Positions 4,845-61,628 of a DNA stretch of 64,000 nt are shown one piece after another. Source of the DNA: Oceanisphaera pacifica (GTDB taxonomy: Bacteria > Pseudomonadota > Gammaproteobacteria > Enterobacterales > Aeromonadaceae); assembly GCF_017498065.1 (NCBI RefSeq), contig NZ_JAGDFX010000006.1, positions 124,001-188,000 of the forward strand. The letters run 5' to 3'. The translations under genes and the position numbers were made by a program. The notes beneath the pieces were generated by a model. That model was given only the letters and a program-made list of their open reading frames with translations, was not told the DNA's origin and did no database searches. Position 1 is the stretch's first letter. Every line of letters starts with the position of its first letter.

Positions 4845-4902
4845 AGCGCCGAGCACTAAGCACTCGGCGCCCAGTTAAAAAGAAACAGGGCTGTGTTTCT
4901 TT
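4845..4902 (+). repeat. Heptad array and two hairpins 3' of rraB
   Basis: 12 nt after the rraB stop, five 7-nt units beginning AGC or GGC run from 4845 to 4879. They contain an 8-bp palindrome (4846-4853 with 4863-4870). A second stem of 9 bp (4879-4887 with 4894-4902) follows and could act as a terminator. The downstream gene begins at 4924. Confidence 0.65.
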
Positions 4903-4923
4903 CTGCTGATAAGGAGCCTATCA

Positions 4924-5319
4924 ATGAGCCACCCTTACGACCCGCATGTTTTGCTCTGGGATGAGTATAAATATCGCCACGATCATATTTGGCAAAAACT
5001 ATTTCAAATCACTATTGCCGTGGTATTACTGGGTTCAGTGCCTTACCTTAAACCTGAGATTACTCAGGTGCTACAGGAATGGATATTAATTGCCCCTTTG
5101 TTGGGGAGTATGTTGGCGCTTATTACGCTGGTGCTGATGCATGTTGAACTGACGTTGTTTGCCAAAATTGCCGGTGCCCATCGCGCGCACCAAGAAGAGC
5201 TGGGCATTATTGAGCACAGTCGACATAACTATTTTCGTTATCTTGTGATTACTTATGTGAGTTTTCTATTACTGGTGAGCTTAGCTAACGTCGCTGTAGT
5301 GCGCTTATTATGGCTATAA
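4924..5319 (+). CDS. Small integral membrane protein of unknown function
   Basis: 131 residues. A soluble N-terminus rich in charged and aromatic residues (about 1-24) is followed by three hydrophobic segments at about 25-45, 50-72 and 105-129. Between the second and third is a basic, histidine-rich stretch with HRAHQEELGIIEHSRHNYFRY. I do not recognise the family. The ATG at 4924 has a good AAGGAG site. It is monocistronic, between rraB and osmB. It could be a small signalling or stress membrane protein, but nothing in the sequence shows this. Confidence 0.7.
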   Translation: MSHPYDPHVLLWDEYKYRHDHIWQKLFQITIAVVLLGSVPYLKPEITQVLQEWILIAPLLGSMLALITLVLMHVELTLFAKIAGAHRAHQEELGIIEHSRHNYFRYLVITYVSFLLLVSLANVAVVRLLWL

Positions 5320-5483
5320 AACGATAATGGGTAGCAGTGAAAGTTAAGTTTCGATCTAGTATTCACTTATCACTATCAGTGATAGACGACAGGGTTCGAC
5401 ATAGCGCAGGTGTTATATGAGGCTATGAAGCCATAAAGTCGTTACACTCGCTAGGTAATATTCATTTGTTTGAGGTAATAACT
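5320..5483 (+). promoter_or_regulatory. osmB upstream region with a perfect palindrome
   Basis: The 164-bp gap upstream of osmB contains a perfect 7-bp inverted repeat with a 3-nt centre (5368-5384), a possible operator. GAGG at about 5470 fixes the osmB start at 5484. I could not place a clear -35/-10 pair; osmB is osmotically and RpoS induced in E. coli. Confidence 0.35.
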
Positions 5484-5699
5484 ATGACCAACAGCAAAAA
5501 AATAATCGCAGGCAGTGCCCTAGTGCTTATGTTAGGGTTATCGGCATGCAGTAATATGTCGGACCGAGATCGTAATACCGCCATTGGTGCTGGTGCTGGT
5601 GGTGTGGCTGGCTCGGTACTTACAGACGGCAGCACTGCAGGCACCATTGGTGGCGCTGTAGTGGGTGGCGTTATTGGTAACCAAGTAGATAAAGATTAA
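5484..5699 (+). CDS. osmB: Osmotically inducible glycine-zipper lipoprotein
   Basis: 71-residue envelope lipoprotein matching E. coli OsmB (72 residues) along its length. It has a signal peptide with lipobox LSAC (Cys about 22), the SDRDRNTAIGAGAG block, then a glycine-zipper hairpin (repeated GxxxG within AGGVAGSVL and IGGAVVGGVIG). It would be lipidated and anchored in the outer membrane. In E. coli it is induced by high osmolarity and stationary phase. The frame is open to TTG 5466, but ATG 5484 carries the ribosome site. A strong terminator follows. Confidence 0.9.
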   Translation: MTNSKKIIAGSALVLMLGLSACSNMSDRDRNTAIGAGAGGVAGSVLTDGSTAGTIGGAVVGGVIGNQVDKD

Positions 5700-5725
5700 C
5701 GATTACAATCACTATATTAAGCAGT

Positions 5726-5758
5726 AGAGAGAGCATAAATCATGCTCTCTCTTTTTTA
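5726..5758 (+). terminator. Rho-independent terminator of osmB
   Basis: Perfect 11-bp stem (5726-5736 with 5742-5752), 5-nt loop and a run of T. Confidence 0.9.
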
Positions 5759-5932
5759 TGTTTCTCATTATTCTTATTGGTGGAAGACTGCTCCAAGGAT
5801 CCGCTGATTGGACGTTGTAGACTCTGTTTATCACCACTTTTAATGCTATGCTCTGAAAATAATGACCCTTTAACACAAGTAAAATGAATACGGTTTGGGC
5901 ATTGACCGATAAAATCATAAGGATATGAGCCT

Positions 5933-7231
5933 ATGCTAGGAACCAGCAAATTAAAGCGAGAGCTATCTCATTATCGCCAGCAGTACGAACAAGCGCATGC
6001 TGTTCAGCAAGCAATTCGCTCTCATATGGCGGTGATTGAGTTTACCCCACAAGGCGAAATATTAGACGCTAATAACCGTTTTTTAACCGTGGTCGGTTAT
6101 ACACTGGATGATATTGTTGGTGCTCATCATCGTATCTTCTGCTCTCAAGCTTTGTCCGAAACCGCCGAGTACGCACAATTTTGGCAACAATTACGACAAG
6201 GTGAATCACAAAGGGGCACCTTTGCTCGCTTTAACCGTCACGGCGATATTATTTGGCTAGAAGCAACTTATTTTCCTGTGCTTAATGAGCAAGGTGAAGT
6301 CGTCAGAATATTAAAAATTGCCAGCGATATTACCGAAAAACAGCATCAGCTTGCTGCTCAGCAAGCCGTCTTAAGCGCCTTACATTTATCGATGGCGGTG
6401 ATTGAGTTTGCCGTAGACGGCACTATTTTAACGGCTAATGAAAACTTCTTGAACGTAATGGGTTATCGTCTTGAGCAGCTTGTAGGCCAGCATCATCGTA
6501 TATTTTGTGATAGTGAGTTTTATCAGCAGCAGCCTAATTTTTGGCAAGATTTAGCAAAAGGCGAGCACAAATCAGGCCGCTTTAAGCGTGTGGATGCACA
6601 AGGTAATGACATTTGGCTTGAAGCGACCTATAACCCCATTTTTGATGGCGCAGGCCAAGTACACAGGGTGGTGAAATTTGCCAGTGATATTAGTGAACGT
6701 GTGCGCCAGTCACGTAAAAATCAACAAGCTTCAGAGCAGGCCTGTGATATTGCTGTTCAAACCTCTCATACTGTTGAGCAAGGGAATAACTCTTTATTAG
6801 CTTCGGTAAATACTTCAATACAAGTCTCGAATGATCTTGATCAGACGATGTTGGTAGTGAATCAGCTAAATGAACAGTCGCGTAATATTGAAGAAATAGT
6901 GGGTACTATTAGTAGTGTGGCCGAGCGAACTAATTTATTAGCGTTAAACGCGGCTATTGAAGCGGCACGCGCAGGTGAGCAAGGACGTGGCTTTGCCGTG
7001 GTCGCCGATGAAGTGCGCCAATTAGCAGGGCGAACCAGTGAGGCCACCAACGAAATAAGCCAAGTGGTGCAACAAAATCGTGAGCTGACAGAGCAAGTCT
7101 CTAAAGCCATTGTGAATGTTACCCAGGTGGCCGAGCAGGGCAAGCAGCAAGTATTAGATGTAGAGGCCGTGATGGGAGAAATACATCAAGGCGCATTGGC
7201 AGTACAAGAAACCGTGGCAGGACTCTCTTAA
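5933..7231 (+). CDS. Cytoplasmic PAS-PAS chemoreceptor (BdlA/Aer-like)
   Basis: 432 residues with no transmembrane segment. Two tandem PAS domains (about 27-133 and 149-255) share the same landmarks: a V(V/M)GY turn, the AHHRIFC/QHHRIFC block and the IWLEATY strand. A short methyl-accepting signalling domain (about 275-432) follows, with the tip [16 protein letters not shown] at about 331-346. Length and order match Pseudomonas BdlA (biofilm dispersal; two PAS and one MCP domain) and soluble Aer-like receptors. PAS domains of this type often bind haem or flavin and sense oxygen or redox, which is inference here. The signalling domain is short, so both helical arms are truncated relative to membrane receptors. 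Start ATG 5933 has AAGGA upstream. Confidence 0.85.
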
Positions 7232-7256
7232 GCCGAGAGGGTTCGTTTCACCATAA

Positions 7257-7284
7257 AAAAACCGACCCTTGGAGGTCGGTTTTT
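7257..7284. terminator. Bidirectional terminator between the chemoreceptor and valS
   Basis: 11-bp stem (7257-7267 with 7274-7284) with A and T tracts on both sides. It serves both converging units. Confidence 0.9.
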
Positions 7285-7327
7285 GTTTACTGTGGCGTGC
7301 AGCCTTGCCTATGCGAAAAGCACAGTC

Positions 7328-10183: not shown

Positions 10184-10187
10184 GATG

Positions 10188-10634: not shown

Positions 10635-10636
10635 CT

Positions 10637-14498: not shown

Positions 14499-14526
14499 AG
14501 CGCCAGGCAACCAGCGCCCAGCTAAA
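14499..14526 (+). repeat. AGC-heptad array 3' of lptG
   Basis: Four consecutive 7-nt units (AGCGCCA, GGCAACC, AGCGCCC, AGCTAAA) begin 5 nt after the lptG stop, in the convergent gap with the RDD gene. No T-tract terminator is visible here. Confidence 0.6.
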
Positions 14527-15609: not shown

Positions 15610-15845
15610 GAGTAAATTCGTCCTACGAAAAGCCAGAGCCACCCTTTGGTCATTGCGAGGAGTGCAACGACGCGGCAATCCATTTAACAAACAGTAATAA
15701 GCTAGAAGCCGGAAGTAAAACCAAAAATAAAAATGCCTCAGTGTTTTTGTTTAGCTTACCGCTTCCAGCTCTGAGCTTCCGGCTTTCTATACGCTGAGCG
15801 CTGACGAAAAAAACACAACCGCAGCTTTTCTTTAATGTAAAGCGG
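15610..15845 (+). repeat. Dispersed mosaic repeat, copy 1 (inverted copy at 32048-32302)
   Basis: Block order: a GTCATTGCGAGGAG...GCGGCAATCCA element (15649-15682), an AGC-heptad array (15700-15720), an A/T-rich spacer with a small hairpin (about 15726-15750), a reversed heptad array (15754-15788) whose GAAGCCGGAAG arm is complementary to the first, and a GCGTAAAGCG tail. The same blocks occur in the same order on the opposite strand at 32.05-32.30 kb with scattered substitutions and three short indels. It sits downstream of barA and carries no ORF. Confidence 0.8.
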
Positions 15846-22213: not shown

Positions 22214-22278
22214 GGCGGTACGCTTTACGCGATAAGTTAAAACAAAACGTGGTTCGTCTTTAACGTGTGGCGTACCGC
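22214..22278 (+). repeat. Heptad array and palindrome between relA and mazG
   Basis: Five 7-nt units begin 5 nt after the relA stop. A 9-bp inverted repeat (22215-22223 with 22270-22278) encloses them, and an inner GTTAAA/TTTAAC pair could extend the fold. It resembles the array after ispH. Confidence 0.55.
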
Positions 22279-22314
22279 GTATGACGTACGGCTTCTTTTA
22301 CATAGGAACTATCT

Positions 22315-24193: not shown

Positions 24194-24637
24194 ATGAAGC
24201 TGACCACCTATACCGATTTTGGTCTAAGAACCTTGATGTACTTGGCAACCCTGCCCGAGGGAGAGCTAACCAGCGTGGCGCACGTTGCTAATGTGTATGA
24301 GATATCGCGTAACCATTTGGTTAAAATAGTGAATCAGCTGGCGCGTGAGGGTTATATTCGTGCTATTCGCGGTAAAAACGGCGGTATTTGCTTAGCGCGT
24401 AAGCCTGCTGACATTAACATTGGTACTGTGATCCGCACTTTAGAGAATAATATTCAAGGTATAGATTGTGGCAGTCCCGCTTGTTACTTGGTGAAAGTCT
24501 GCCGATTAAAGGATGCGTTAAAGAAAGCCATGGATGCTTTTTTAGCCGTGATGGACGGCTATACCTTGGCGGATCTTATTGGTAACCGAGACGAACTAAT
24601 GGTGATTTTTAGCGAGCTAGACCCCCCGAAAAAATAG
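24194..24637 (+). CDS. nsrR: Nitric-oxide-sensing repressor NsrR (Rrf2 family)
   Basis: 147 residues. Winged-helix Rrf2 protein that binds an iron-sulfur cluster through Cys92, Cys97 and Cys103, matching the E. coli NsrR ligands 91/96/102. The recognition region ISRNHLVKIVNQLAREGYIRAIRGKNGGI is close to E. coli. NO would destroy the cluster and derepress NO-detoxification genes. The start at ATG 24194 has AGGA 9 nt upstream; upstream in-frame codons are not homologous. In enterics nsrR precedes rnr, but here rnr is 30 kb away. Confidence 0.88.
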   Translation: MKLTTYTDFGLRTLMYLATLPEGELTSVAHVANVYEISRNHLVKIVNQLAREGYIRAIRGKNGGICLARKPADINIGTVIRTLENNIQGIDCGSPACYLVKVCRLKDALKKAMDAFLAVMDGYTLADLIGNRDELMVIFSELDPPKK

Positions 24638-24709
24638 CGGTCAGCTGGAAGCTAGAAGTGAAAACCCAAACATACTGATTTAGTCTCTTTCTTCCAGCTT
24701 CCAGCTTTC
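24636..24709. repeat. Paired AGC-heptad arrays between convergent nsrR and yfjD
   Basis: Plus-strand heptads begin inside the nsrR stop codon, and minus-strand heptads begin within about 3 nt of the yfjD stop. Each reads AGC on its own gene's strand. The arrays are complementary: 24644-24658 pairs with 24691-24705 at 14 of 15 positions across a 32-nt loop. This gives both transcripts a 3' hairpin. Confidence 0.7.
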
Positions 24710-25974
24710 TATTTGTAATAGTGGGGGAGTATGCGTACTAGCTTGATCATATTATTTTCTACATCAAGAATTTCAATAGGATAACCGGCTAGGCGTAGGC
24801 AGATATTAGCTTTAGGAATATCTTCTAAATACTCGATAATTAAGCCGTTCAGCGAGCGGGGGCCATCGTTAGGTAACTGCCAATTAAGCTCTTTGTTGAT
24901 ATCACGAATACTCACCGAGCCCTCTATAAGGTAAGAACCGTCATCTTGCGGTGTTATCTCTTCACTCAAGGTAGGGCTAATGGTGGTGGTAAAGTCACCG
25001 ACAATTTCTTCCAGAATATCATCCAAGGTCACTAACCCCTGAATGTCCCCGTATTCATCTACAATAATGCCAATGCGCTCTTTGTTACGCTGAAACTTAA
25101 CCAGTTGCACATTGAGCGGTGTGGCCTCGGGAATATAGTAAAGCTCACGTAGGGCACGCATTAAGTTCGATTTACTAAATTCATCTTTTGCAAATAAGCG
25201 TAGCGCATCACGGGCATGGATAAAGCCCAGAGCATCGTCAATATTATCCCGATATAACAACACTTTAGTGTGCGGGCTTTGCATTAACCGGCGGCTAATA
25301 CTCTTCCAATCTTGTGTGACATCTATGCCGTAAATTTCATTACGCGGCACCATAATATCGTCTACTGTGACCTTTTCTAAATCTAAAATAGACACCAGCA
25401 TATCTTGGTGACGACTCGGGATCAGCGCCCCCGCTTCGTTGACTATGGTGCGTAATTCTTCAGAGCTAATCGCATTATCTTCTTGGCTATGAGGGTTAAT
25501 ACGAAATAACAATAGTAGGCCATTAGAAATCGCATTAATCATCCAGACCGCAGGGTATAAGAGAACCATGAGTGGCTTAAGTATCACAGAAGCCGGAAAG
25601 GCGACTCGTTCAGGATATAAAGCCGCGAGTGTTTTAGGCGTGACTTCGGCAAAAATAAGCACCACTACGGTCAGTGCCACAGTGGCAATGGCCACCCCAT
25701 AATCGCCAAATAAACGCATTGCAATTAAGGTGGCAATAGCAGATGCCAAGATATTGACGAGATTATTACCGATTAAGATCAGGCCAATAAGCCGGTCTGG
25801 GCGAGATAATAAAGTTTCTACTCTTAACGCTGACTTATGTTTATTTTGCGCTAAATGCCGCAACCGGTAGCGATTTAACGACATCATGCCCGTTTCTGAG
25901 CTGGAGAAAAAAGCAGAAATAAAAAGTAGTACTATCAGGATACCGCTAAGGGTACCCGTGGATATCTCGTCCAA
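24709..25974 (-). CDS. yfjD: CNNM/CorB-type membrane protein with CBS domains
   Basis: 421 residues. Order: a DUF21/CNNM transmembrane domain (about 1-185) with FFSSSETGMMSLNRYRLRH and VVLIFAEVTPKTLAA, tandem CBS domains (about 200-335, with DIMVPRNEI and DEYGDIQGLVTLDDILEEIVGDF) and a CorC/HlyC C-terminal domain. Close to E. coli YfjD (CorB). Family members are linked to Mg2+ or Co2+ transport. Start is TTG 25974, aligning with the YfjD N-terminus. Order yfjD-ypjD divergent from ffh is conserved. Confidence 0.92.
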   Translation of the reverse strand: MDEISTGTLSGILIVLLFISAFFSSSETGMMSLNRYRLRHLAQNKHKSALRVETLLSRPDRLIGLILIGNNLVNILASAIATLIAMRLFGDYGVAIATVALTVVVLIFAEVTPKTLAALYPERVAFPASVILKPLMVLLYPAVWMINAISNGLLLLFRINPHSQEDNAISSEELRTIVNEAGALIPSRHQDMLVSILDLEKVTVDDIMVPRNEIYGIDVTQDWKSISRRLMQSPHTKVLLYRDNIDDALGFIHARDALRLFAKDEFSKSNLMRALRELYYIPEATPLNVQLVKFQRNKERIGIIVDEYGDIQGLVTLDDILEEIVGDFTTTISPTLSEEITPQDDGSYLIEGSVSIRDINKELNWQLPNDGPRSLNGLIIEYLEDIPKANICLRLAGYPIEILDVENNMIKLVRILPHYYK

Positions 25975-30580: not shown

Positions 30581-30593
30581 TTGCTAAAAGTGA

Positions 30594-30621
30594 AGCGCCA
30601 AGCGCCCGGCGCCCAGCCAAG
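30594..30621 (+). repeat. AGC-heptad array after the rplS terminator
   Basis: Four 7-nt units (AGCGCCA, AGCGCCC, GGCGCCC, AGCCAAG). This is the one clear case where an array follows a classical terminator. Its CCAAG end is complementary to the reversed array at 30687-30742. Confidence 0.6.
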
Positions 30622-30686
30622 AGTAAACAGCTATTTTCTCCTCCTGATACTGGTCAGGAGCTGGTTTTGATGTCTATTATTTAGCC

Positions 30687-30742
30687 TTGGTGCTTGGTGC
30701 TTGGTGCTTGGTGCTTGGTGCTTGGTGCTTGGTGCTTGGTGC
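30687..30742. repeat. Eight perfect tandem copies of a 7-bp unit
   Basis: TTGGTGC repeated eight times without a mismatch (56 bp); read on the minus strand it is AGCACCA. It ends 20 nt before the MFS start codon. Perfect copies imply recent expansion and possible length variation. Confidence 0.95.
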
Positions 30743-30762
30743 TGTTACTTGAGGGAATATAA

Positions 30763-31944
30763 ATGCCTATTACGGTGTGGGGCTTATCAATAGCGCAGGC
30801 GCTATTGATGTCGGGTAATATTTTACTGGTGTCTATTTCAGCGCTAGTCGGGCAAGAGCTAGCCGTGCATCCGGCACTGATCACCTTACCCATCGCCTGT
30901 CAGTTTTTAGGCTTAATCACGGCCACCTTGCCAGCAGCCCATCTAATGCAAAAACTGGGACGAAAAATCGGCTTTATTCTAGGTAACTTAATCGGGTTGT
31001 TAGGCACTTGGGTGGCGTTACAGGGCTTGGTAGCAGCCAGTTTAACCTGGTTTGCCCTAGGCACTTTTTTAATTGGTATCGCCATTGGTGTTGGCCAGCA
31101 ATACCGCTTTGCGGCATTAGAGGCCTGTGCGTCGGCCCAGCATGCGCGCGCCATTAGTATGGTGATGGCCGGGGGCGTTTTAGCCGCCATTATTGGCCCT
31201 AACTTGGCGATATTATCGCAAAATTGGCATGATGCTAGCCCCTACGCTGGGGCATTTTATGGTTTGTTTGGTCTCTATGTATTAGCACTATTATTAATTG
31301 TGAGCTTACCGCTGCTTAAACCAAGTGTGGAGCATATAGACACTGGCGTTCGGCCTTATCGCGTGCTATTTCGCCAACCATTACTGGTGGCGGCCATTGC
31401 GTCTGGCATGATTGGCTATGGCATTATGGTGTTGATCATGACCGCCACGCCACTGGCAATGAACCAAGCACAACATGGCTTTAATGATACCGCCTATGTC
31501 ATTCAGTGGCATGTGCTGGGCATGTTTGTGCCATCCTTTTTTACTGGTAACTTGATCCGACGCTTTACTACCCGCCGCGTTATTTTATGGGGTTGTGGGG
31601 CTTTATTGCTCAGTGTGGCGGTGAATTTGGCTGGGCAGGGTTTTTGGTATTATTGGTGGGGCTTATTATTACTGGGTGTGGGTTGGAACTTTACGTTTAT
31701 TGGCGCCACGCATTTGCTGACGTTTAGCTATTTACCTGCAGAAAAAGCCAAGGTACAGGGCATTAATGAATGCTTTGTTTTTAGCGCAGCCGCATTAGGC
31801 AGCTTATTTGCCGGACAGGGCTTGGCGATGCTGGGTTGGCTTGGCTTAAACCTTTTTGCAACACCTTGGATCTTATTCGTCGCCATGCTTATCTGGCGAT
31901 TAAAAGAACAAACTCCCAGCGCAGCTGTTAGTGAGCAGCCGTAA
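30763..31944 (+). CDS. MFS transporter
   Basis: 393 residues, about 12 hydrophobic helices. The major facilitator loop 2-3 signature is present in reduced form (HLMQKLGRKIGFILGN, about 67-82). A central cytoplasmic loop near 190-205 separates two six-helix halves. The N-terminal half has an unusual GVGQQYRFAALEACAS segment. I cannot assign a substrate. ATG with GAGGG upstream. The 8-copy heptad array ends 20 nt before it, so array length may affect expression. A short array begins at its stop codon. Confidence 0.85.
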   Translation: MPITVWGLSIAQALLMSGNILLVSISALVGQELAVHPALITLPIACQFLGLITATLPAAHLMQKLGRKIGFILGNLIGLLGTWVALQGLVAASLTWFALGTFLIGIAIGVGQQYRFAALEACASAQHARAISMVMAGGVLAAIIGPNLAILSQNWHDASPYAGAFYGLFGLYVLALLLIVSLPLLKPSVEHIDTGVRPYRVLFRQPLLVAAIASGMIGYGIMVLIMTATPLAMNQAQHGFNDTAYVIQWHVLGMFVPSFFTGNLIRRFTTRRVILWGCGALLLSVAVNLAGQGFWYYWWGLLLLGVGWNFTFIGATHLLTFSYLPAEKAKVQGINECFVFSAAALGSLFAGQGLAMLGWLGLNLFATPWILFVAMLIWRLKEQTPSAAVSEQP

Positions 31945-32302
31945 GCGGTCAGCTGTTTTGTAGCCGCTGCGTTAGCTGCGAAATTCAGCGCGGCAATCCA
32001 TTTCGAAAGAAAGCGCTACGCCTAACGTTGAGCGCTTTACGTTAAAGAAAACTGCGATTTGGTTTTTCTCGTAAGGCGCTCAGCGTAAAGCGTATAGAAA
32101 GCCGGAAGCTCAGAGCTGGAAGCGGTAAACTAAACAAAAACACTGAGGCATTTTTATTTTTGGTTTTACTTCCGGCTTCTAGCTTCAAGCTTATTACTGT
32201 CTGTTAAATGGATTGCCGCGTCGTTGCACTCCTCGCAATGAGCAATCCTCGCAATGACCAAAGGGGGGCTCCGGCTTTGCGTAGGGTCGAATTCATTCGA
32301 CC
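31944..32302. repeat. Intergenic repeat block with dispersed mosaic copy 2
   Basis: This 370-bp convergent gap between the MFS gene and mutH has no gene. From the left: AGC heptads starting in the MFS stop codon; a partial GCGGCAATCCA element (31990-32001); GCGTAAA-type heptads; the reverse-complement copy of the 15610-15845 mosaic (about 32048-32302) including the CATTGCGAGGAG element (32209-32258, with an extra partial tandem copy); and GTAGGGTCGAATTCATTCGACC (32281-32302), a palindrome seen again at 58301. Confidence 0.8.
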
Positions 32303-34179: not shown

Positions 34180-34194
34180 AAAGTAATAGCCGCA

Positions 34195-34341
34195 AGCGAT
34201 AAGCTTGAAGCAGTAAGTTAACAGCAAGAGAAAGCCGTACTTTTTGATGCAGCGTTAAATACAAGACTCAGTCATTGGCTGCAATGTGGTAAGACATATA
34301 GCGTAAGGCGTATAACTTAAAGCGTATAATTTCAGGCGCAT
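34195..34341 (+). repeat. Two AGC-heptad arrays between rppH and ptsP
   Basis: Six units (AGCGATA, AGCTTGA, AGCAGTA, AGTTAAC, AGCAAGA, GAAAGCC) run from 34195, 16 nt after the rppH stop. Six more of the GCGTAA/GCGTAT type run from 34300 to 34341, ending just before the ptsP ribosome site. Confidence 0.6.
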
Positions 34342-39386: not shown

Positions 39387-39698
39387 ATGGACACCATGAT
39401 GGAATTGGACATGCAAGCGATGGAGGCGAGTGCCACCAATGCAGTGAAACTGCTCAAGGCGCTGGCCAATGAGCGCAGATTATTTATTTTATGCCATTTA
39501 CTCGACAAAGAACTATCGGTAGGTGAAATGAACGAGCATTTGGGGTTAAGCCAATCAGCGCTATCTCAACATTTAGCATTACTGCGTAAAGATGGCTTTG
39601 TTCGTACACGAAAAGAAGCGCAAACCGTTTACTATTCACTAAAAAGCGATGAAGTGCGAGAAGTGATCGCATTGCTGCACAAACTTTACTGTAAATAA
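39387..39698 (+). CDS. hlyU: ArsR-family regulator, HlyU-like
   Basis: About 103 residues. Winged-helix ArsR/SmtB protein. The span SATNAVKLLKALANERR to LHKLYCK closely resembles Vibrio HlyU, including ELSVGEMNEHLGLSQSALSQHL (recognition helix) and TRKEAQTVYYSL. HlyU and relatives (BigR, YgaV) are redox or sulfide-responsive rather than metal sensors; the Cys in LFILCHLL and in the terminal LYCK sit where HlyU has its cysteines. The start is uncertain: ATG 39387 is used, with further ATGs at 39396, 39399 and 39411, and an earlier open TTG at 39357 overlapping nhaR. The symbol rests on similarity alone. Confidence 0.8.
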   Translation: MDTMMELDMQAMEASATNAVKLLKALANERRLFILCHLLDKELSVGEMNEHLGLSQSALSQHLALLRKDGFVRTRKEAQTVYYSLKSDEVREVIALLHKLYCK

Positions 39699-39751
39699 CA
39701 GTAAAAATGTGAGGAGTGAGGAGTGAAGGGGACTACTTGAAAATAGGCAAT

Positions 39752-47563: not shown

Positions 47564-47574
47564 AAACAGATACC

Positions 47575-47665
47575 AGCTGTACGCTATACGCCGACCGCGG
47601 TACGAAAACATCAAAACCGCTGTTTTTGTTTAACGTAAGGCGCACAGCGTAAAACGTACAGCGCT
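47575..47665 (+). repeat. Heptad array 3' of ispH
   Basis: Units of 7 nt (AGCTGTA, CGCTATA, CGCCGAC, CGCGGTA, CGAAAAC) run from 12 nt after the stop to 47609. A second run (AGGCGCA, CAGCGTA, AAACGTA, CAGCGCT) covers 47638-47665. The halves are partly complementary. Confidence 0.55.
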
Positions 47666-47730: not shown

Positions 47731-47732
47731 TG

Positions 47733-47754
47733 CTCGGCGCTTGGTGCTGGGCGC
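47733..47754 (-). repeat. Minus-strand heptads 3' of pilE
   Basis: Read on the minus strand, AGCGCCC, AGCACCA and AGCGCCG follow the pilE stop after 6 nt. The AGC phase is on the coding strand of the minus-strand gene. Confidence 0.6.
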
Positions 47755-47760
47755 TAATGA

Positions 47761-48156
47761 TCACCAACACTCAACTGGGGTTTTGGTGTTGTTGCTGTCT
47801 AGGCTTAGGGTGTGACAGGCGGTGTTGCCGGCTTTATCTTGATATTGGGCTGAGGTTTGTTTAGCACTGGCAGTTAGCCTGTATTGATGGGCACTTGCGT
47901 TACTGACCGTAAATACATAATGTTGATGAGTCGGTAAAAAATGCGCACTTGCCTCCGTTTGACTGGCATAAGACGCATGAGTGACCCGCCACTTCTCCTG
48001 TTGTAGCTGCAGAGCATACAGCGTTTGCATGGCTGCCATGCGCTTACTCTTAACTAAATAATGAGACAAGCTGGGGTAGGCCACCAAGGCTAATATGGCC
48101 ACAATGGCCATGGCGATTAATAACTCGATCAGAGAAAACCCCCGTATTCTTTTCAT
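47761..48156 (-). CDS. pilE: Type IV minor pilin, PilE-like
   Basis: 131 residues. Class III leader MKRIRG with cleavage before Phe (RG-FSLIELLIAM), Glu5 present, hydrophobic alpha-1 helix, then a short beta domain with a CxW-type C-terminus and two cysteines (Cys114, Cys130 by count) that could form the D-loop disulfide. Divergent from the fimT-pilW-pilX-pilV genes across about 90 bp. A minor pilin of the PilE/ComP-like class; not the major subunit by length or context. Confidence 0.85.
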   Translation of the reverse strand: MKRIRGFSLIELLIAMAIVAILALVAYPSLSHYLVKSKRMAAMQTLYALQLQQEKWRVTHASYASQTEASAHFLPTHQHYVFTVSNASAHQYRLTASAKQTSAQYQDKAGNTACHTLSLDSNNTKTPVECW

Positions 48157-49380: not shown

Positions 49381-50505
49381 ATGATAAAAAATAAGGGATT
49401 TACGACCCTCACCATAACGGTGATATTGCTTTCTTTGTTAATGTCAGCCTCTGTATTTATTGGCAAAGTATTGGTGTCTGAAAAGCGCATCACCTTAAAC
49501 GAGCTTGAATATCGGGTTGCGCAAGCAACAGCCGAACAAAGTTTGGCTGAGGCCCTTGCCTTATTTAAGGTGCAGCCCTCAACTCGTAGCGTGGCTGGCA
49601 CCGTCTCCAATACTGTGGCTGAGGTGAGCTATACGGTAAGCATTACCCCTAACACTGCTTTGGCGGGTGTGTATCAGCTAGAGTCTGTGGCCAGCTTGCC
49701 TAACGGGGGTGAAAGTCGGGTAAGCCTAAGCGTGGCGCGCCGCTCTGTGCTTAAGCCCATTCAAAACCAAAAAGTTGCCTCTTTAATGTTAGCGGGTGCG
49801 AGTAACGATATTAATGGTGATATTCGCTTAGTCGCTGATCCTCATGGTGGCGGTAGCGGTATCCCCCTGTCACTTTGGTCGAGTGGTGGCATAAGCAGCA
49901 GTGGGCGCATACAAAGCTGTCACTTGAGTGACTTTGATGCACAAGCGAATCACTGTGTGCTTGAGTTAAGTTATATCAGCAACAGCAGCCAAGATATTAA
50001 TGGGGATATGCTGTTAAGTGCTACTGATTTTCCGGCTGACTTACTGGATCATATTTTTGGTTATGGTCAAGCGCAGTGGTCCAGCCTAGCAGCCATGGCG
50101 GTCTCATCTGTTGCTGGCTGTGAAGACATTAACCGTAGTGGCTTTTTTATTGTGCAACATGGTGGCACTTGTTATCTCAACCAAGTGACCAGTACGCCTT
50201 TATCTCCAGTGATCTTGTTCGTTAAAGATACGGCGGTCATCGCACCCATAAACACAGAATTTTATGGCTTATTGGTGCTTTATGACAGCCAGCCTAATGA
50301 TAGTAATGTGATGGCAGCACAGTTTGGCTCAGGCAGTCAGGTGTGGGGGAGTGTAGTGAGTCGTCTTGGCAATAATCAGCTAGCAGGGGATTTGTCCATT
50401 ATTTATCACGCGGGGATACAGTGTTTGCTGAGTAATTGTAATCAAGAGCCAAACAGCCCCTTTGTGAATCTATATACCATACCCGGCAGCTGGAGTGACC
50501 ATTAA
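49381..50505 (+). CDS. pilX: PilX-like minor pilin with EF-hand-like loops and no Glu5
   Basis: 374 residues, 2 nt after pilW. A pilin-like N-terminus (MIKNKG, then FTTLTITVILL) has Thr at mature position 5 instead of Glu, as in GspK/PilX-type tip pilins. The long ectodomain has DINGD motifs at 143-147 and 205-209; the second fits a 12-residue EF-hand/dockerin loop (Asp205, Asn207, Asp209, Ser213, Asp216). A third DINRSG occurs at 249-254. Several cysteines (about 180, 192, 247, 264, 348, 353) suggest disulfides. Longer than usual PilX, and I see no pilY1 in the cluster. Symbol by position and N-terminus only. Confidence 0.7.
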   Translation: MIKNKGFTTLTITVILLSLLMSASVFIGKVLVSEKRITLNELEYRVAQATAEQSLAEALALFKVQPSTRSVAGTVSNTVAEVSYTVSITPNTALAGVYQLESVASLPNGGESRVSLSVARRSVLKPIQNQKVASLMLAGASNDINGDIRLVADPHGGGSGIPLSLWSSGGISSSGRIQSCHLSDFDAQANHCVLELSYISNSSQDINGDMLLSATDFPADLLDHIFGYGQAQWSSLAAMAVSSVAGCEDINRSGFFIVQHGGTCYLNQVTSTPLSPVILFVKDTAVIAPINTEFYGLLVLYDSQPNDSNVMAAQFGSGSQVWGSVVSRLGNNQLAGDLSIIYHAGIQCLLSNCNQEPNSPFVNLYTIPGSWSDH

Positions 50506-50509: not shown

Positions 50510-50584
50510 AGCGCCCAGCTTCAGGGCAGTGCTGAGTGTTGAGGGATTAGTATTTAGTGAAACTGCTTAAAGCTGACAGCTATC
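50510..50584 (+). repeat. Heptads between pilX and pilV
   Basis: AGCGCCC and AGCTTCA begin 5 nt after the pilX stop (50510-50523); AGCTGAC and AGCTATC occur at 50571-50584, just before the pilV ribosome site. Confidence 0.5.
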
Positions 50585-50601: not shown

Positions 50602-51063
50602 ATGAAACAACAAAGTGGGTTTGGTTTAATTGAGGTGATGGTCGCTTTTGTGATCTTGGCCCTAACTGCGGGTTCTTTATTACAGCTGAGCAAACAATAT
50701 TTATCATACAGCCGAGACGGGCGCGCTCAAGAAGTGGCATTGCGCTTGGTGGAGTCTAAATTAGACGAGCTCAGGCATCAGCAGCTAAGCCTTGGATATA
50801 ATAATGTGGTGTCTGGCAGTGATACGAGCAGGTTGATGGATATAGACTTCACTGTGACATGGACGGTAGAGGCGAAAGCATGGAATGCCGCACAAGGTCA
50901 GTGGTTAGCGTCTGCCAGTGGCGTCAGCAATAAAAAAGACGTAAAAGTGTCTCTCTCTTGGCAAGACAGTCAGGGAGTATTAAATACCATGGCGTTGGAG
51001 TCCGCCATCACCCCCATTACTCCCCTCTACGCCGGCCCCTTTGGCGAACGCTATCCCTTGTAA
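50602..51063 (+). CDS. pilV: Type IV minor pilin PilV
   Basis: 153 residues. Leader MKQQSG, then FGLIEVMVAFVILALTAG with Glu5; RAQEVALRLVESKLDELR follows, typical of PilV/GspI-type pilins. The beta domain is short. Last gene of the minor-pilin run; 96 nt after pilX, so it may have a separate start. Confidence 0.88.
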   Translation: MKQQSGFGLIEVMVAFVILALTAGSLLQLSKQYLSYSRDGRAQEVALRLVESKLDELRHQQLSLGYNNVVSGSDTSRLMDIDFTVTWTVEAKAWNAAQGQWLASASGVSNKKDVKVSLSWQDSQGVLNTMALESAITPITPLYAGPFGERYPL

Positions 51064-51180
51064 TGCCCTTCGGGCAGCGGTAAGCCGTCAGCCTGTCACT
51101 TAGTCACATCTTTTTGTTGATGTTTGAGTGGAAGTCAGGCAGAGCGCACTGCTCCGCTCGACTCGTCGCTGGGATAGCCA

Positions 51181-53517: not shown

Positions 53518-53557
53518 GGCCCTTCGGGCAGCGGTAAGCGATCAGCCGTCAGTTTAA
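53518..53557 (+). repeat. Hairpin and AGC-heptad array 3' of nadE
   Basis: A GCCC-TTC-GGGC hairpin and AGCGGTA, AGCGATC, AGCCGTC, AGTTTAA start right after the stop. The same hairpin-plus-AGCGGTA composite follows pilV at 51064. Confidence 0.65.
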
Positions 53558-54008: not shown

Positions 54009-54013
54009 AAGAC

Positions 54014-54041
54014 AGCTGTCAGCCGTCAGCTGTCAGGTAAG
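54014..54041 (+). repeat. AGC-heptad array 3' of glnB
   Basis: AGCTGTC, AGCCGTC, AGCTGTC, AGGTAAG starting 6 nt after the stop. The final unit plus TACC is nearly identical to the end of the array at 59366. Confidence 0.65.
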
Positions 54042-54758: not shown

Positions 54759-54778
54759 TGCAATGCCGCTTCCTGTTG

Positions 54779-54830
54779 TGACAAAAGCGCCCGGTTTAAG
54801 CAAGCACTGGCTTAACCGGGCGCTTTGTCA
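54779..54830 (+). terminator. Terminator hairpin of luxS
   Basis: A long stem (about 54779-54800 with 54810-54830, two bulges) of high GC content; the T tract after it is interrupted. Confidence 0.65.
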
Positions 54831-54890
54831 CTTGTTATTCTTATACTTTAGATACTCTTTCCTTATTTCAGTGCGCAAATGGACTACTTT

Positions 54891-57236: not shown

Positions 57237-57323
57237 TGGTTAGTTAATAATAAAGGGGTTAGTGGCTAGGGATTGCTCTCTAACTGCTAGCCCCATTTTT
57301 TCTTCTGTATATTGAGACACCTT

Positions 57324-58058: not shown

Positions 58059-58072
58059 GGGGGACGAAAACA

Positions 58073-58175
58073 AGCGCCCAGCGCCCGGCTCCAAGCGCCA
58101 AGAAGAGCTAAACCTAGACAAACGCCCAGCGTAAGGGCAGTTAAACCTGACAGCTTACCGCTGATAGCTGACGGC
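58073..58175. repeat. AGC-heptad array and reversed array 3' of rlmB
   Basis: Five units (AGCGCCC twice, GGCTCCA, AGCGCCA, AGAAGAG) start 15 nt after the stop. A reversed array (AGC phase on the minus strand) lies at 58148-58175, followed by GAAGGGG. Confidence 0.6.
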
Positions 58176-58191
58176 TTTCCGAAGGGGTTGG

Positions 58192-58225
58192 GTCATTGCG
58201 AGGAGCGTAGCGACGCGGCAATCCA
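58192..58225 (+). repeat. Dispersed CATTGCGAGGAG element, third copy
   Basis: Begins GTCATTGCGAGGAGCG and ends GACGCGGCAATCCA, with ATTGC/GCAAT inverted ends. Other copies: 15649-15682 (+) and 32209-32258 (-). Elements of this type are known as dispersed intergenic repeats in many bacteria. Confidence 0.8.
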
Positions 58226-58300
58226 CTGCACAAACGGCTGCATGCTTACGCCAAACAAACCTGTGTGCTTTTTTGACGTACAGCGTACAGCTATCTTTTG

Positions 58301-58409
58301 TAGGGTCGAATTTATTCGACCAAGACTCATCACTTGGTCTCAACCTTTGCAGGGCGCTTACCGTGGGTAAAATATTTGTACAAAATCGGTCCAATGAATT
58401 GGACCCTAC
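58301..58409. repeat. Small element with palindromic inverted ends (MITE-like)
   Basis: Left end 58301-58321 and right end 58388-58408 are each palindromic (GGTCGAA...TTCGACC and GGTCCAA...TTGGACC) and inverted relative to each other, matching at most positions. The 66-bp interior has no gene. The left-end palindrome recurs alone at 32281-32302. Confidence 0.6.
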
Positions 58410-58497
58410 GCTAAAATAGGTGCCCCACAAAGTTCGAGTCGGTGTCCGTTGTTAGCTGGGCGCCGCATTCCCTACCCATCATGATCAGGAAATAAAC

Positions 58498-59361
58498 ATG
58501 CAACAATTAATGGCTCGGGTGGCGGCAGATCGACAGATGTTGGCCATTTTATTACTGGTGCTCGGTAATTTAATGATCTCAGTGGGCGATGTATTGGTGA
58601 AGTTACTGGGGGACACCACAGTCACTCCTTATCAATATGTGGCACTGCGCTTTTTGTTGACCAGCTTATTGTTATTACCATTTTGGTTACGGCTTCCTCG
58701 TGCCAAAAAAGGCATAGCAGAGTGGAAAATACACCTAGTGCGCGGGCACTTGTTACTGATTGGTTCGGCGTGTGTGTTTATTAGCCTAATCTATTTGCCG
58801 CTGGCCACGGCCAATGCCGTGTTTTATGCCTCGCCCTTACTGACACTGCCACTGGCGGTACTGCTTAGCAAAGAGCAAGTGCGCTTACCCGCTTATGGGG
58901 TAAGTTTACTGGGGTTTGTCGGAATTTTAATTGTGCTAAATCCCGCCCAGTGGCATTGGGCGGGGTGGGTTGCGTTATTAACCGCCTTTACCATGGCTGC
59001 CAGTAATGTACTGGTGCGCCGCTTACCCCAAGGGCGGTCTGTGTTGGCCACTTTGTTTTTAACACAGGCATTGGCCTTACCCATCAGCTTTGCTTTAGCG
59101 CTGCCTACCTGGCAGCCATTAACTCAGGAGTTATGGCTGTTGCTAGCGGGGGCGACACTGGTAGGCATTGTATATCAGGGAGTCTGTATTTTGGCGTATG
59201 CCATGGCCGATGCCAGTAAAATAGCCGCCAGTGAATACTCAGGCCTGATATTTGTCACTATTATGGGCATGGTATTATTCAGCGAGTTTCCCGCTTTTAA
59301 TGTCTACCTAGGCGCTGCTGTAGTGATAGTCGCGATCGGTTTACAACGTAAGCTGCGTTAA
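58498..59361 (+). CDS. EamA/DMT family transporter
   Basis: 287 residues, about ten hydrophobic helices arranged as two EamA repeats (about 15-140 and 155-285). Opening helix with GNLMISVGDVLVKLL, the PYQYVALRFLLTSLL segment and YLPLATANAVFYASPLLTL are typical of drug/metabolite transporters. Substrate unknown. ATG with AGGA upstream. It follows a 440-bp repeat-rich gap and precedes a heptad array. Confidence 0.85.
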   Translation: MQQLMARVAADRQMLAILLLVLGNLMISVGDVLVKLLGDTTVTPYQYVALRFLLTSLLLLPFWLRLPRAKKGIAEWKIHLVRGHLLLIGSACVFISLIYLPLATANAVFYASPLLTLPLAVLLSKEQVRLPAYGVSLLGFVGILIVLNPAQWHWAGWVALLTAFTMAASNVLVRRLPQGRSVLATLFLTQALALPISFALALPTWQPLTQELWLLLAGATLVGIVYQGVCILAYAMADASKIAASEYSGLIFVTIMGMVLFSEFPAFNVYLGAAVVIVAIGLQRKLR

Positions 59362-59365
59362 AGAA

Positions 59366-59407
59366 AGCTATCAGCCGTTAGCCGTCAGCTGTCAGATAAG
59401 TACCGTC
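59366..59407 (+). repeat. AGC-heptad array 3' of the EamA gene
   Basis: AGCTATC, AGCCGTT, AGCCGTC, AGCTGTC, AGATAAG, TACCGTC, starting 5 nt after the stop. AAGCTGATCGCTTAAAGC follows with partial complementarity. Confidence 0.65.
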
Positions 59408-59457
59408 TTTAACTGAAAGCTGATCGCTTAAAGCTTTCCTTTAAGGTGTTTATGTTT

Positions 59458-59463
59458 TATAAT
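59458..59463 (+). promoter_or_regulatory. Probable -10 of the rpsF operon promoter
   Basis: Perfect TATAAT about 97 nt before rpsF; a CTTTCC near 59434 is the best -35 but is weak. It lies just downstream of the heptad array. Confidence 0.45.
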
Positions 59464-59503
59464 CCGCCACCTTAAAATCAGTCGTTGTACTTATAAGTTC
59501 CTT

Positions 59504-59537
59504 GCCTCCGATGGTCTGACTGAACCCGCGCAGAGGC
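59504..59537 (+). promoter_or_regulatory. Possible S6:S18-binding leader of rpsF
   Basis: A GCCTC/GAGGC stem (59504-59508 with 59533-59537) encloses a CCG-containing internal region (CCGATGG). rpsF leaders in many bacteria carry a stem with a CCG motif that binds the S6:S18 complex and represses the operon. Assignment is by resemblance and position. Confidence 0.4.
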
Positions 59538-59559
59538 TATAACCCGTAAGGAGCAATCC

Positions 59560-59970
59560 ATGCGTCATTATGAAATCGTATTTATGGTTCACCCTGATCA
59601 GAGTGAACAAGTTCCAGGCATGATTGAGCGTTATACCGCTGCAATCACTACTTCTGGTGGCCAAGTTCACCGTTTAGAAGACTGGGGCCGTCGTCAGTTG
59701 GCTTACCCGATTAACAAGCTGCACAAAGCACACTACGTTCTAATGAACGTAGAAGCTGGTCAAGCTGTTATCGATGAGCTGGAAGACAACTTCCGCTTCA
59801 ACGATGCTGTGCTGCGTAACATGATTATGCGCACTAAGCAGGCCGTCACCGAGCCTTCTGAAATGGCAAAAGCCAAAGAAGAACGCGCACCACGTCGTGA
59901 CGACGCTCCTCGCGCAGAAGCTGCTCCACGTGCAGAAGCTGCACCTAGCGCAGACACTGCTGCTGAGTAA
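59560..59970 (+). CDS. rpsF: 30S ribosomal protein S6
   Basis: 136 residues. [33 protein letters not shown] and [12 protein letters not shown] define the family. The C-terminal tail is acidic/alanine-rich with an imperfect repeat (PRAEAA) instead of a poly-Glu tail; in E. coli RimK adds glutamates to S6. AAGGAG site. The next gene is rpsR, 27 nt later, with no priB. Confidence 0.97.
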
Positions 59971-59982
59971 TCCACGTTTTAG

Positions 59983-60225
<243 letters not shown>

Positions 60226-60263
60226 GCAGCGGCCTAACTCGTTCACTTTTTTGAGGAAAGGTA

Positions 60264-60713
60264 ATGCAAGTTATTCTACTTGATAAAATCGCCAAATTAG
60301 GCGGCCTGGGCGACCAGGTAACCGTAAAAGCCGGTTATGCTCGTAACTTTTTGTTGCCACAAGGCAAAGCCGTATTAGCAACAAAAGATAACGTAGCCAC
60401 TTTTGAAGCGCGCCGCGCTGAATTAGAAGCTAAGTTAAACGAACAGTTGGCAGCCGCTCAAGGGCGCGCTGACCAGTTATCTGGTTTAGCAAGCGTAGAA
60501 ATCGCTTCTAAGTCTGGTGACGAAGGCAAATTGTTCGGCTCTATTGGTGCTCGTGACATTGCTGACGCTATTACTGCAGCAGGTGTTGACGTTGCTAAGA
60601 GCGAAGTTCGTTTAACCGACGGCGTTTTACGTAACGTTGGCGAGTATGAAGTAGGTGTGCAGCTGCACGCTGACGTTCAAGCAACCGTGACTATTGCGGT
60701 TGTTGCTATCTAA
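60264..60713 (+). CDS. rplI: 50S ribosomal protein L9
   Basis: 149 residues (E. coli 149). N-domain [19 protein letters not shown] and [16 protein letters not shown], long central helix, C-domain with [14 protein letters not shown]. Ends at a strong terminator. Confidence 0.98.
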
Positions 60714-60732
60714 TTTAGATTGCTCGTTAAAG

Positions 60733-60760
60733 AAAACCCGCGCTTGTCGCGGGTTTTTTA
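60733..60760 (+). terminator. Rho-independent terminator of rpsF-rpsR-rplI
   Basis: 10-bp stem (60733-60742 with 60748-60757), 5-nt loop, T run. Confidence 0.92.
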
Positions 60761-60808
60761 TTGTCTGCAATAAGGCTACAGTAGGATAAATCTTACGGAG
60801 GTATAGCA

Positions 60809-61546
60809 ATGGCAGATTGGGTTACGGGTAAAGTGAAAAGCCGAACGCAGTGGTCGGATACGCTATTTTCTTTGGTAGTGGATGCCGAGGTTGCGCCTTT
60901 TAAAGCCGGGCAGTTTACTAAACTGGCGTGGCATAGCGAGCATCATAAAGTATCGCGGGCGTATTCTTATGTGAATGCTCCGGGTGAAGATAGCGAATTT
61001 TATGTTGTTAACATACCTGAAGGTCAACTTACGCCGCACTTGGCAGAGCTGCAAGTGGGGGATGAGCTATTAGTTGAACGCTCAGCGGCAGGCTTTTTAA
61101 CGCTAGATGAAGTACCAGCAGGGCGAGATTTATGGCTAATGGCCACCGGCACCGGTATTGGCCCATTTATTTCTATGTTAGCTGAGGGAAGTTGCTGGCA
61201 GCAGTTTACCAATATCATACTAGTGCACGGTGTTCGCCTAGGTGAAGAGCTTGCCTATCAAGCGCGCATTCGCGAGTTAACTCAAGATCAACCGAACTTT
61301 CAGTATATTCCCTTTGTCTCAAGAGAGGCTCACGCTACTGCCGAGCCTGGGCGCATTACTCATGCCATTGCCAACGGCAAGCTTGAGCAAAAAGCGCAGT
61401 TGGCTTTTACGGCTGAGCACAGCCGTGTGCTTTTGTGCGGCAATCCGCAAATGGTGCGCGACAGCTTAAATGAGCTAAAAGAAAAAGGCCTAAAAAAGCA
61501 CCTAAGACGCAAAGCCGGGCAAATTTTAATGGAAAATTATTGGTGA
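60809..61546 (+). CDS. fpr: Ferredoxin/flavodoxin-NADP+ reductase
   Basis: 245 residues (E. coli Fpr 248). FAD enzyme reducing flavodoxin or ferredoxin with NADPH. MADWVTGKV start, FAD site RAYSYVNAPG, NADP site ATGTGIGPF, LCGNPQMVRD and the terminal YW match E. coli Fpr. AGGAGGT-like site (ACGGAGGTATAGCA). A long heptad array starts 6 nt after its stop. Confidence 0.96.
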   Translation: MADWVTGKVKSRTQWSDTLFSLVVDAEVAPFKAGQFTKLAWHSEHHKVSRAYSYVNAPGEDSEFYVVNIPEGQLTPHLAELQVGDELLVERSAAGFLTLDEVPAGRDLWLMATGTGIGPFISMLAEGSCWQQFTNIILVHGVRLGEELAYQARIRELTQDQPNFQYIPFVSREAHATAEPGRITHAIANGKLEQKAQLAFTAEHSRVLLCGNPQMVRDSLNELKEKGLKKHLRRKAGQILMENYW

Positions 61547-61551
61547 AAAAT

Positions 61552-61628
61552 AGCTATCAGCTTTAAGCCGTCAGCTTTCAGCTTTCAGCTTTCAGCTTTA
61601 AGCCGTCAGCTTCCGGCTTCCAGCTGTG
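61552..61628 (+). repeat. Eleven-unit AGC-heptad array 3' of fpr
   Basis: Eleven uninterrupted 7-nt units from 61552: ten begin AGC and one GGC. AGCTTTC occurs three times in tandem, AGCTTTA twice and AGCCGTC twice. The longest array in the window and the clearest proof of the 7-nt phase. It ends 3 nt before the stop codon of the minus-strand small gene. Confidence 0.9.

Follow-up and report, generated by a model that had tools for sequence, protein, structure and literature searches.

The draft genome of Oceanisphaera pacifica (G000; 3,109,059 bases) carries, at the 3' ends of many genes, runs of consecutive 7-nt units (heptads) that begin within a few nucleotides of the stop codon and read on the strand of the gene they follow. 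They came to light as arrays of AGC-initial units in a 64-kb stretch of this genome, referred to here as the window. In a typical element the stop codon is followed by about four heptads and a core that passes from A-rich to T-rich; usually an inverted arm completes it, built mostly from the same unit family. AGC is one dialect, merely the commonest unit of O. pacifica, and comparison of orthologous gene ends suggests that it is the architecture, and not the sequence, that is conserved. It is possible, if on the doubtful side, that heptad palindromes form one class of bacterial 3'-end elements defined by architecture, namely a 7-nt period, about four units per arm, a start near the stop codon, and a same-family inverted arm, all kept whatever the unit. 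Whole elements would then be swapped between families at a fixed post-stop niche by some copying or insertion process, in several lineages, with the GGGAATC heptads of Xanthomonas as one dialect.

Heptad arrays past stop codons

Genes were called with our own script (83.7% of O. pacifica coding), which missed small genes and possibly mis-typed some gaps as tandem. Noncoding and gene-end statistics for O. pacifica refer to a non-random sample of four long contigs (820,611 bases, 26% of the genome). Those for its relatives refer to 200 kb around rlmB (120 kb in G020) in six of the 22 congeneric genomes, namely G002, G005, G006, G014, G017, and G020. The unit families described below and their sense strands follow our own patterns, drawn up after the data had been viewed.

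Consistent with the original prediction that AGC-heptad arrays lie at gene ends of the window, AGCN4AGCN4AGC had 38 matches there on both strands, compared with 1.06 expected from dinucleotide shuffles, the largest of 100 shuffles giving 4. Genome-wide, the five-unit pattern (AGCNNNN)4AGC, searched on both strands, was matched 314 times (169 + 145) and its reversed control never (0 + 0). When 60 non-homopolymer triplets were ranked at spacings of 4 to 14 in the noncoding O. pacifica sample, AGC at spacing 7 came first (156) and GCT at spacing 7 second (142), the median being 1. Segments matching themselves at lag 7 numbered 53, 51 of them noncoding, and lags between 4 and 21 that are not multiples of 7 gave at most 12 each.

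The sample held 179 AGC arrays of at least three units, 143 of which lay between called genes that stand 25 nt or more apart. Of these intergenic arrays, 54 started no more than 25 nt past a same-strand stop, compared with 13.4 expected and a maximum of 25 in 1000 permutations, whereas wrong-strand starts near a stop were found for four (13.4 expected) and starts near the start of a gene also for four (8.5 expected). Stop anchoring and strand bias, on which refutation had been made to turn beforehand, were thus both found in the sample. Of the 488 gene ends followed by a tail of 40 nt or more, 86 carried an array. Among 430 ends with a gap of at least 60 nt, 85 had an array within the first 45 nt, and the first unit most commonly stood 4 or 5 nt past the stop (35 of 85), with a smaller group one heptad later, at 11-12 nt. 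An antisense-pattern control (73/430 ends) gave no information, as it is also matched by sense units like AGCT and AGCC. The commonest module runs from the stop through 4-5 nt to AGCNNTM units and closes with AGTTAAA (31 of 104 strict arrays) or AGCTAAA (9). Within AGCNNTM the AGC..T frame is strict, and the variable dinucleotide is TG, CG, TA, GG, TT, GA, or CA in 319 of 335 units. At positions 153076-153532 of contig C25, AGC arrays recur at four places with a 142-base spacing, probably a 142-bp tandem duplication containing an array.

Seven unit families were distinguished: AGCNNTM, GCNNTAC, GCRCC, GCNNGAA, TGTTGA, GTGARGR, and GGGAN. AGC is too narrow as a rule: it is the commonest unit in O. 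pacifica, and the leading units of the relatives differ, with GTGAGGR, GGGAYTN, GCRCCNR, GCNNTAC, and GCNNGAA beside AGCNNTM. The rest of the expected pattern was borne out, with stop anchoring, strand specificity, a 7-nt phase that persists as units vary, inverted partners, and association with 3' ends. In all seven genomes, gene-end triples of a triplet at spacing 7 exceeded those at every other spacing from 4 to 12 (spacing 7/best other: O. pacifica 612/37, G005 165/17, G014 231/10, G017 32/13, G002 116/7, G006 64/8, G020 53/4). In the 60 nt after stops, sense and antisense arrays of O. pacifica stood at 43:1 for AGCNNTM, 24:0 for GCNNTAC, 11:0 for GCRCC, 7:0 for GCNNGAA, 5:1 for TGTTGA, and 3:0 for GTGARGR. 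The six relatives gave 38:8 for GTGARGR, 20:1 for GCRCC, 18:8 for GGGAN, 7:3 for GCNNTAC, 6:3 for GCNNGAA, 5:0 for AGCNNTM, and 2:0 for TGTTGA. Offsets past the stop clustered at 2-6 nt for most families, being more spread for GCNNTAC in O. pacifica and peakless for TGTTGA, and the 60 nt before gene starts held at most six arrays per family and strand.

In O. pacifica gaps of 45-250 nt, lag-7 arrays were present in 23 of 57 convergent, 27 of 199 tandem, and 1 of 59 divergent gaps (lag 6 or 8 controls 3, 12, and 6), and the six relatives gave 29 of 82, 31 of 260, and 2 of 89 (controls 4, 17, and 4). Longer O. pacifica gaps (250-800 nt) had arrays in 20 of 29 convergent, 35 of 84 tandem, and 7 of 36 divergent cases (controls 7, 21, and 5).

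Exchange of unit families at orthologous gene ends

Arrays co-occurred at orthologous ends with odds ratios of 97 for G002/G006 (p 5e-9), 9.8 for G005/G014 (p 6e-4), and 3.0 for G005/G017 (p 0.22). For O. pacifica the odds ratios were 5.0 with G014 (p 0.002), 5.0 with G002 (p 0.016), 5.3 with G020 (p 0.02), 2.7 with G005 (p 0.04), 3.4 with G006 (p 0.07), and 4.0 with G017 (p 0.09). Controls at lags 6 and 8 fell below 0.05 in two of nine comparisons. Pooled over the O. pacifica comparisons, ends that were not both convergent gave 3.6 (p 6e-6).

In the two closely related species pairs, whose median protein identities are 97% and 95%, orthologous non-divergent gaps had arrays in both, one, or neither species in 12, 5, and 26 and in 8, 1, and 45 cases, respectively, so that arrays were common to both species at 20 gaps and confined to one at 6. 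The unit family differed in about 8 of the 20 shared gaps, a figure lowered from the 10 given by the patterns because one gap (G005@145055) proved on reading to hold the same element and another (126228) rests on one or two matches. Where G002 has a 70-bp gap filled by a GGGACTG-type palindrome, the gap of G006 measures 71 bp and its palindrome is of the GTGAGGG type; another gap shows the swap in the reverse direction. Behind the conserved rplS terminator, AGCGCCC units in G005 are matched by GTGAGGG units in G014. Selection seems to act on mRNA 3'-end architecture while the sequence that builds it is exchanged, a case that raises the concrete questions of why the unit has seven nucleotides and how elements swap.

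The arrays might instead be a mutational by-product, replication slippage favouring 7-nt units and 3' gaps tolerating such repeats, but we give this a slim chance. According to the available part of PMC4692102, work cited there found heptameric repeats over-represented in several bacteria and proposed slippage tied to polymerase contact length. At 182158 a single arm has been homogenised, reading CAGTCCC x6 in G002 and CATTCCC x5 in G006, with the other arm nearly unchanged. AGCNNTM arrays, however, are not fresh slippage products, because adjacent units avoid likeness: neighbours had the same variable dinucleotide in 26 of 231 cases (0.113, compared with 0.155 expected), the opposite of what fresh slippage gives. 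Slippage also leaves unexplained the strand and start rule, the same-family arm pairs, and the conserved presence.

The expectation that no described family follows such a rule did not survive, as GGGAATC heptads of Xanthomonas follow much of it. The available text of PMC4692102 describes heptameric degenerate repeats, GGGAATC / GGGGA(C/T)T in Xanthomonas and Nostoc, usually of four units and far closer to the upstream open reading frame (ORF; 28 vs 160 nt on average). Two inverted converging arrays are reported in 70 and 75 cases, few lie between divergent genes, and most occur between the same genes in two species, with length and sequence varying much. The elements described here share with them the 7-nt unit, some four copies, a place beside the upstream stop, inverted mates, and scarcity in divergent gaps. 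As far as that text goes, the Xanthomonas and Nostoc repeats have one G-rich unit type, read as a G-quadruplex, and 16% lie between convergent ORFs. Unlike them, ours comprise seven unit families in one genus, most without G-tracts, are strongly enriched between convergent genes, start a few nucleotides past the stop, have arms mostly of one family, and exchange families at orthologous sites. New relative to that account are therefore the several families under one rule, the same-family arms, the close offset, the orthologous exchange, and the dispensability of G-tracts. If the class proposed above is real, isolated reports of heptameric repeats, including the G-quadruplex case of Xanthomonas, become one class with a common rule.

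That our arrays are simply G-quadruplex-type heptads as proposed for Xanthomonas and Nostoc is highly improbable. GGGAYTN arrays with inverted mates do occur in G002, G006, and G020, and their unit type is that of the available PMC4692102 text, but they alone are of the G-rich GGGANTN type. The main O. pacifica families (AGCNNTM, GCNNTAC, and GCRCC) have no G-tract and obey the same position rule, and G002 and G006 swap GGGAYTN with GTGAGGR at the same gene ends. Intergenic heptamer arrays are also known within the Gammaproteobacteria as the TAACTGA repeats of marine Beggiatoaceae (PMC4679880); unlike ours, these are described in the available text as one fixed unit lying mostly just upstream of start codons, with one inverted case. 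Among the matches listed in a literature search that left most subscription journals outside, no paper reported such arrays in Oceanisphaera, Oceanimonas, or Zobellella.

Arm pairing and a possible role at mRNA 3' ends

Tandem gaps of O. pacifica carried both sense and inverted modules in 24 cases, sense only in 14, inverted only in 27, and neither in 236. Where both arms were present, raw family counts for the inverted arm were 39 same and 14 other (18/9 in tandem and 21/5 in convergent gaps). In folds of window examples, stems join the two arms, most clearly at 24636-24710, 30586-30762, and 59362-59450. Across the seven genomes, the two 40-nt ends of convergent gaps paired with each other at 0.33 with heptads (n=63) compared with 0.19 without (n=74; p 2e-4), and in all four families computed the arm-pair energy was far better than that of shuffled arms.

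The best fit to these observations would be 3' mRNA protection by a stem-loop. The element may be a 3'-end stem-loop common to transcripts arriving from both sides, like the repetitive extragenic palindromic (REP) elements of Escherichia coli, a reading in which our confidence falls a little short of even. The polymerase would leave a ragged 3' end past the element and exonucleases would trim the mRNA back to the stem, so that it ends in a stable structure just past the stop; between convergent genes, one element could serve both mRNAs. What is kept would then be "heptad palindrome here", a lost or decayed element being replaceable by one of another family, while unit number and sequence within an arm could turn over by slippage.

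The available parts of the sources describe REP elements as palindromes 3' of genes, between convergent or unidirectional ORFs, some of them no more than 15 nt from the stop (PMC3733652, PMC12306157). Their hairpins stabilise RNA 3' ends without terminating transcription (PMC13289151) and, within 15 nt of the stop, can stall ribosomes (PMC12306157), a range into which the start of the heptad arrays falls. Like REP elements and bacterial interspersed mosaic elements (BIMEs), as far as those texts describe them, heptad elements are palindromes downstream of genes in convergent and unidirectional gaps, a share of them close to the stop. Unlike them, they lack the GTAG/CGTC tag, are longer than the 20-40 bp of a REP palindrome, and are made of 7-nt direct repeats.

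Several results weigh against the stem-loop reading. It expects most co-occurrence at ends that are both convergent, and the weak co-occurrence there (pooled odds ratio just 2.1, p 0.057, the two tails of one convergent gap not being independent) therefore counts against it. Swapping arms between loci of the same family left the pairing energy little changed or better, with real and swapped values of -21.6 and -20.1 (sd 1.0) for AGCNNTM (n=34), -21.5 and -22.6 for GCNNTAC (n=15), -38.9 and -38.4 for GCRCC (n=7), and -23.2 and -30.2 for GCNNGAA (n=5). When 39 elements were aligned to the GCNNTAC model, a few of them of other types, their arms showed no locus-specific covariation (Watson-Crick fraction 0.616 real, 0.607 (sd 0.013) swapped); each arm has its own text within a common pattern. 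Because a strongly selected hairpin should covary, this tells against a hairpin. Convergent gaps without heptads folded nearly as well (z -3.6, n=27) as those with them (z -4.6, n=28), the inverted arm was absent by our own patterns in 14 of the 38 sense-bearing tandem gaps, and a hairpin leaves the seven-nucleotide unit length unexplained.

Heptads could alternatively be sites for a protein that reads 7-nt repeats. It could act on RNA, behind the ribosome as it terminates, or on DNA, in the way gyrase reads BIMEs; the palindrome would then arise only because both neighbours need a site. Arms that do not covary and yet keep AGC..T strict and restrict their variable positions would suit such a reader, as would the typical start a few nucleotides past the stop. 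We nevertheless hold it quite improbable. Seven unlike unit families follow the same rule, which makes a single sequence reader unlikely, and inverted arms are present even in tandem gaps where no converging gene was called.

An alternative-terminator role had also been suggested and, in its canonical intrinsic form, found no support, since the element's own T-rich stretch is internal and precedes the inverted arm. By our own detector, canonical terminators were present at 12 of 52 convergent ends with an array and 43 of 116 without (p 0.08), and at 8 of 33 and 53 of 232 other ends, respectively; none was detected at 65 of the 85 array-bearing ends. At the remaining 20 ends the terminator always lay downstream of the array, an order nearly forced by counting arrays in the first 45 nt only. 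The claim that arrays are rare after strong terminators is thus weak at best, and the rplS array at 30594 follows one. For the suggested Rho-dependent signal, a common C-rich rut is unlikely because GTGAGGG sense arms contain no C. The elements are also candidate 3' ends for convergent transcripts without a canonical terminator.

A selfish origin is unlikely but carries some weight, the elements then being dispersed palindromes of the miniature inverted-repeat transposable element type that land, or survive only, just past stops and have no host function. The suggested mobile repeat is partly supported by the GCNNTAC type, whose members are dispersed ~90-bp palindromes sharing a core. The count used here is that of the first search round with one seed copy, which gave 48 matches in the sample over both strands, or about 24 elements; two further rounds reached 137 matches, 67 on the plus strand, and drifted into AGCNNTM and GCNNGAA elements. 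GCNNGAA elements have close copies at several loci, and elements nest inside other palindromes and one another. No target-site duplication was seen by eye at 41 longer matches (some of other unit types), no enzyme was found, and the RAYT-like genes are flanked by different repeats. Insertion alone does not predict conserved presence with changing family. AGCNNTM modules, moreover, are mostly not copies of one another. Among 903 pairs of 43 modules, two of three units agreed in 35 (25.9 expected) and all three in 5 (1.0 expected), so small an excess of similar pairs that a common ancestral copy is unsupported in the sense of recent copying.

Of 23 genomes of the genus, 18 have Y1_Tnp matches, some IS200-like; "RAYT-like" is our own label for the weaker matches. 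A RAYT/REP origin of the heptads was rejected. GTAG-tagged repeats adjoin the gene, by eye, in 10 of 10 RAYT-like loci from eight genomes, so that the genus has GTAG-tagged repeats of its own, apart from the heptads. The GTAG/CGTC tag is absent from the AGCNNTM module and the GCNNTAC consensus, and by eye from the remaining families. Heptad arrays do lie within 420 nt of a few RAYT-like loci. Palindromes of the GTAGGGTCGAATTYATTCGACC type, which belong to the GTAG-tagged repeats, stand in the window at 32281-32302 and 58300-58321, and also adjoin RAYT-like genes in O. pacifica and some relatives.

The pilE-like pilin of the window (47761-48156, minus strand) matches PF16732 (ComP_DUS, E 6e-14), which suggested DNA uptake sequences; these are often paired and inverted behind genes, as terminators. 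The match alone is no proof of binding to such sequences. Uptake sequences are short repeats (available text of PMC1852404 and PMC2397512) and, unlike the heptads here, consist of one fixed word in great excess. Such a word was not found, the top 10-mer having 45 copies in 820 kb with many variants sharing the top, and the candidate was rejected for want of it.

Elements of the window and wider distribution

The elements of the window are listed below by position, strand, and type; GCRCC, GCNNGAA, and AGCNNT denote unit patterns. Gene kinds follow Pfam, and the exact names nsrR, rppH, yfjD, pilE, and fpr are those of the original prediction.

4845..4868, plus: sense array, GCRCC-like, its first unit separated from the rraB stop by 11 nt
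14499..14522, plus: sense array after lptG, 4 nt past the stop
22216..22293 (C34:146216-146293), unstranded: GCNNTAC-type palindrome after relA, both arms (model match, fold)
24638..24708, unstranded: GCNNGAA-type palindrome that fills the Rrf2 gene/yfjD-like gene convergent gap (pattern, fold)
30594..30617, plus: sense array, GCRCC type, 3' of the rplS terminator
30686..30743, minus: inverted arm of 8.3 perfect CTTGGTG copies, pairing with 30594-30617 in the fold
31937..31953, plus: sense array that overlaps the MFS stop codon (pattern)
32012..32097 (C34:156012-156097), unstranded: GCNNTAC-type palindrome in the MFS/mutH convergent gap (model match)
32100..32191, unstranded: GCNNGAA-type palindrome, closely copied at other places in the genome (pattern, genome search)
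34188..34211, plus: sense array after the NUDIX gene, 8 nt past the stop
39709..39726, plus: GTGAGGA heptads after the gene ending at 39698
47574..47662 (C34:171574-171662), unstranded: GCNNTAC-type palindrome after ispH (model match, fold)
47732..47755, minus: sense array, GCRCC type, belonging to the pilE-like gene on this strand (stop at 47761; pattern)
50565..50581, minus: inverted array 3' of the gene ending at 50505 (pattern)
51076..51092, plus: sense array after the pilin-like gene ending at 51063 (pattern)
53530..53546, plus: sense array after nadE (pattern)
54014..54036, plus: sense array after glnB, 5 nt past the stop
58073..58096, plus: sense array, GCRCC type, after rlmB
58153..58176, minus: inverted array 3' of rlmB (pattern)
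59366..59389, plus: sense array, AGCNNT type, after the EamA gene (pattern)
59419..59435, minus: inverted arm pairing with the EamA array 59366-59389 (pattern, fold)
61552..61625, plus: about 11 heptads after fpr, the longest array of the window (pattern)

The arrays first reported after rraB, lptG, relA, the Rrf2 gene (nsrR), the NUDIX gene (rppH), ispH, the pilin-like gene ending at 51063, nadE, glnB, rlmB, the EamA gene, and fpr were all recovered, and those after the yfjD-like and pilE-like genes lie on the minus strand, as had been stated. Two reports needed amending. At the end at 50505 no sense run of three units was found, two units being visible by eye, and the MFS array exists on the plus strand but overlaps the stop codon rather than following it. 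The first AGC of the Rrf2-gene array (24636) likewise overlaps the stop codon. The CTTGGTG arm downstream of rplS probably varies in length between strains. At the Rfam gathering score, the arrays of the window were unmatched, the only matches being a tRNA and an RpsF leader (RF02893) at 59481-59562, just 3' of the EamA heptad element. The rlmB region had no counterpart in the plasmid collection. Among named records, in a search that may leave out those of the genome itself, the RlmB protein was closest to that of a gammaproteobacterial MAG (85%), followed by Zobellella and Oceanimonas (77%), which probably places the organism in the Oceanimonas/Zobellella/Oceanisphaera group of Aeromonadaceae. 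Another dispersed palindrome (TCATTGCGAGGAG..CGGCAATCC) lies at 15650-15681, 31991-31999, 32210-32241, and 58193-58224, and several GCNNTAC elements sit between its two halves.

Beyond O. pacifica, the five-unit AGC pattern was present in all 22 other genomes of the genus (3 to 452 matches each) and in few or no copies in other genera of the family; the reversed control also matched in some. GTGARGR arrays occurred in 17 of 35 relatives, all 17 within the genus, and in 4 of 114 genomes of the class, O. pacifica being included in both counts; the reversed control matched too (35 vs 103 in G007 and 18 vs 103 in G019). AGCNNTM had 406 matches in O. pacifica and was present in 24 of 369 gammaproteobacterial genomes sampled, O. 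pacifica included; among the matches listed, the bearers had mostly single-unit microsatellites and a few mixed arrays. One AT-rich genome of a different gammaproteobacterial family (G375) had 156 AGCNNTM matches, and in the 134 kb viewed two AGCGTTC-type arrays (loci L244 and L262) stand a few nucleotides past stops, possibly an independent case.

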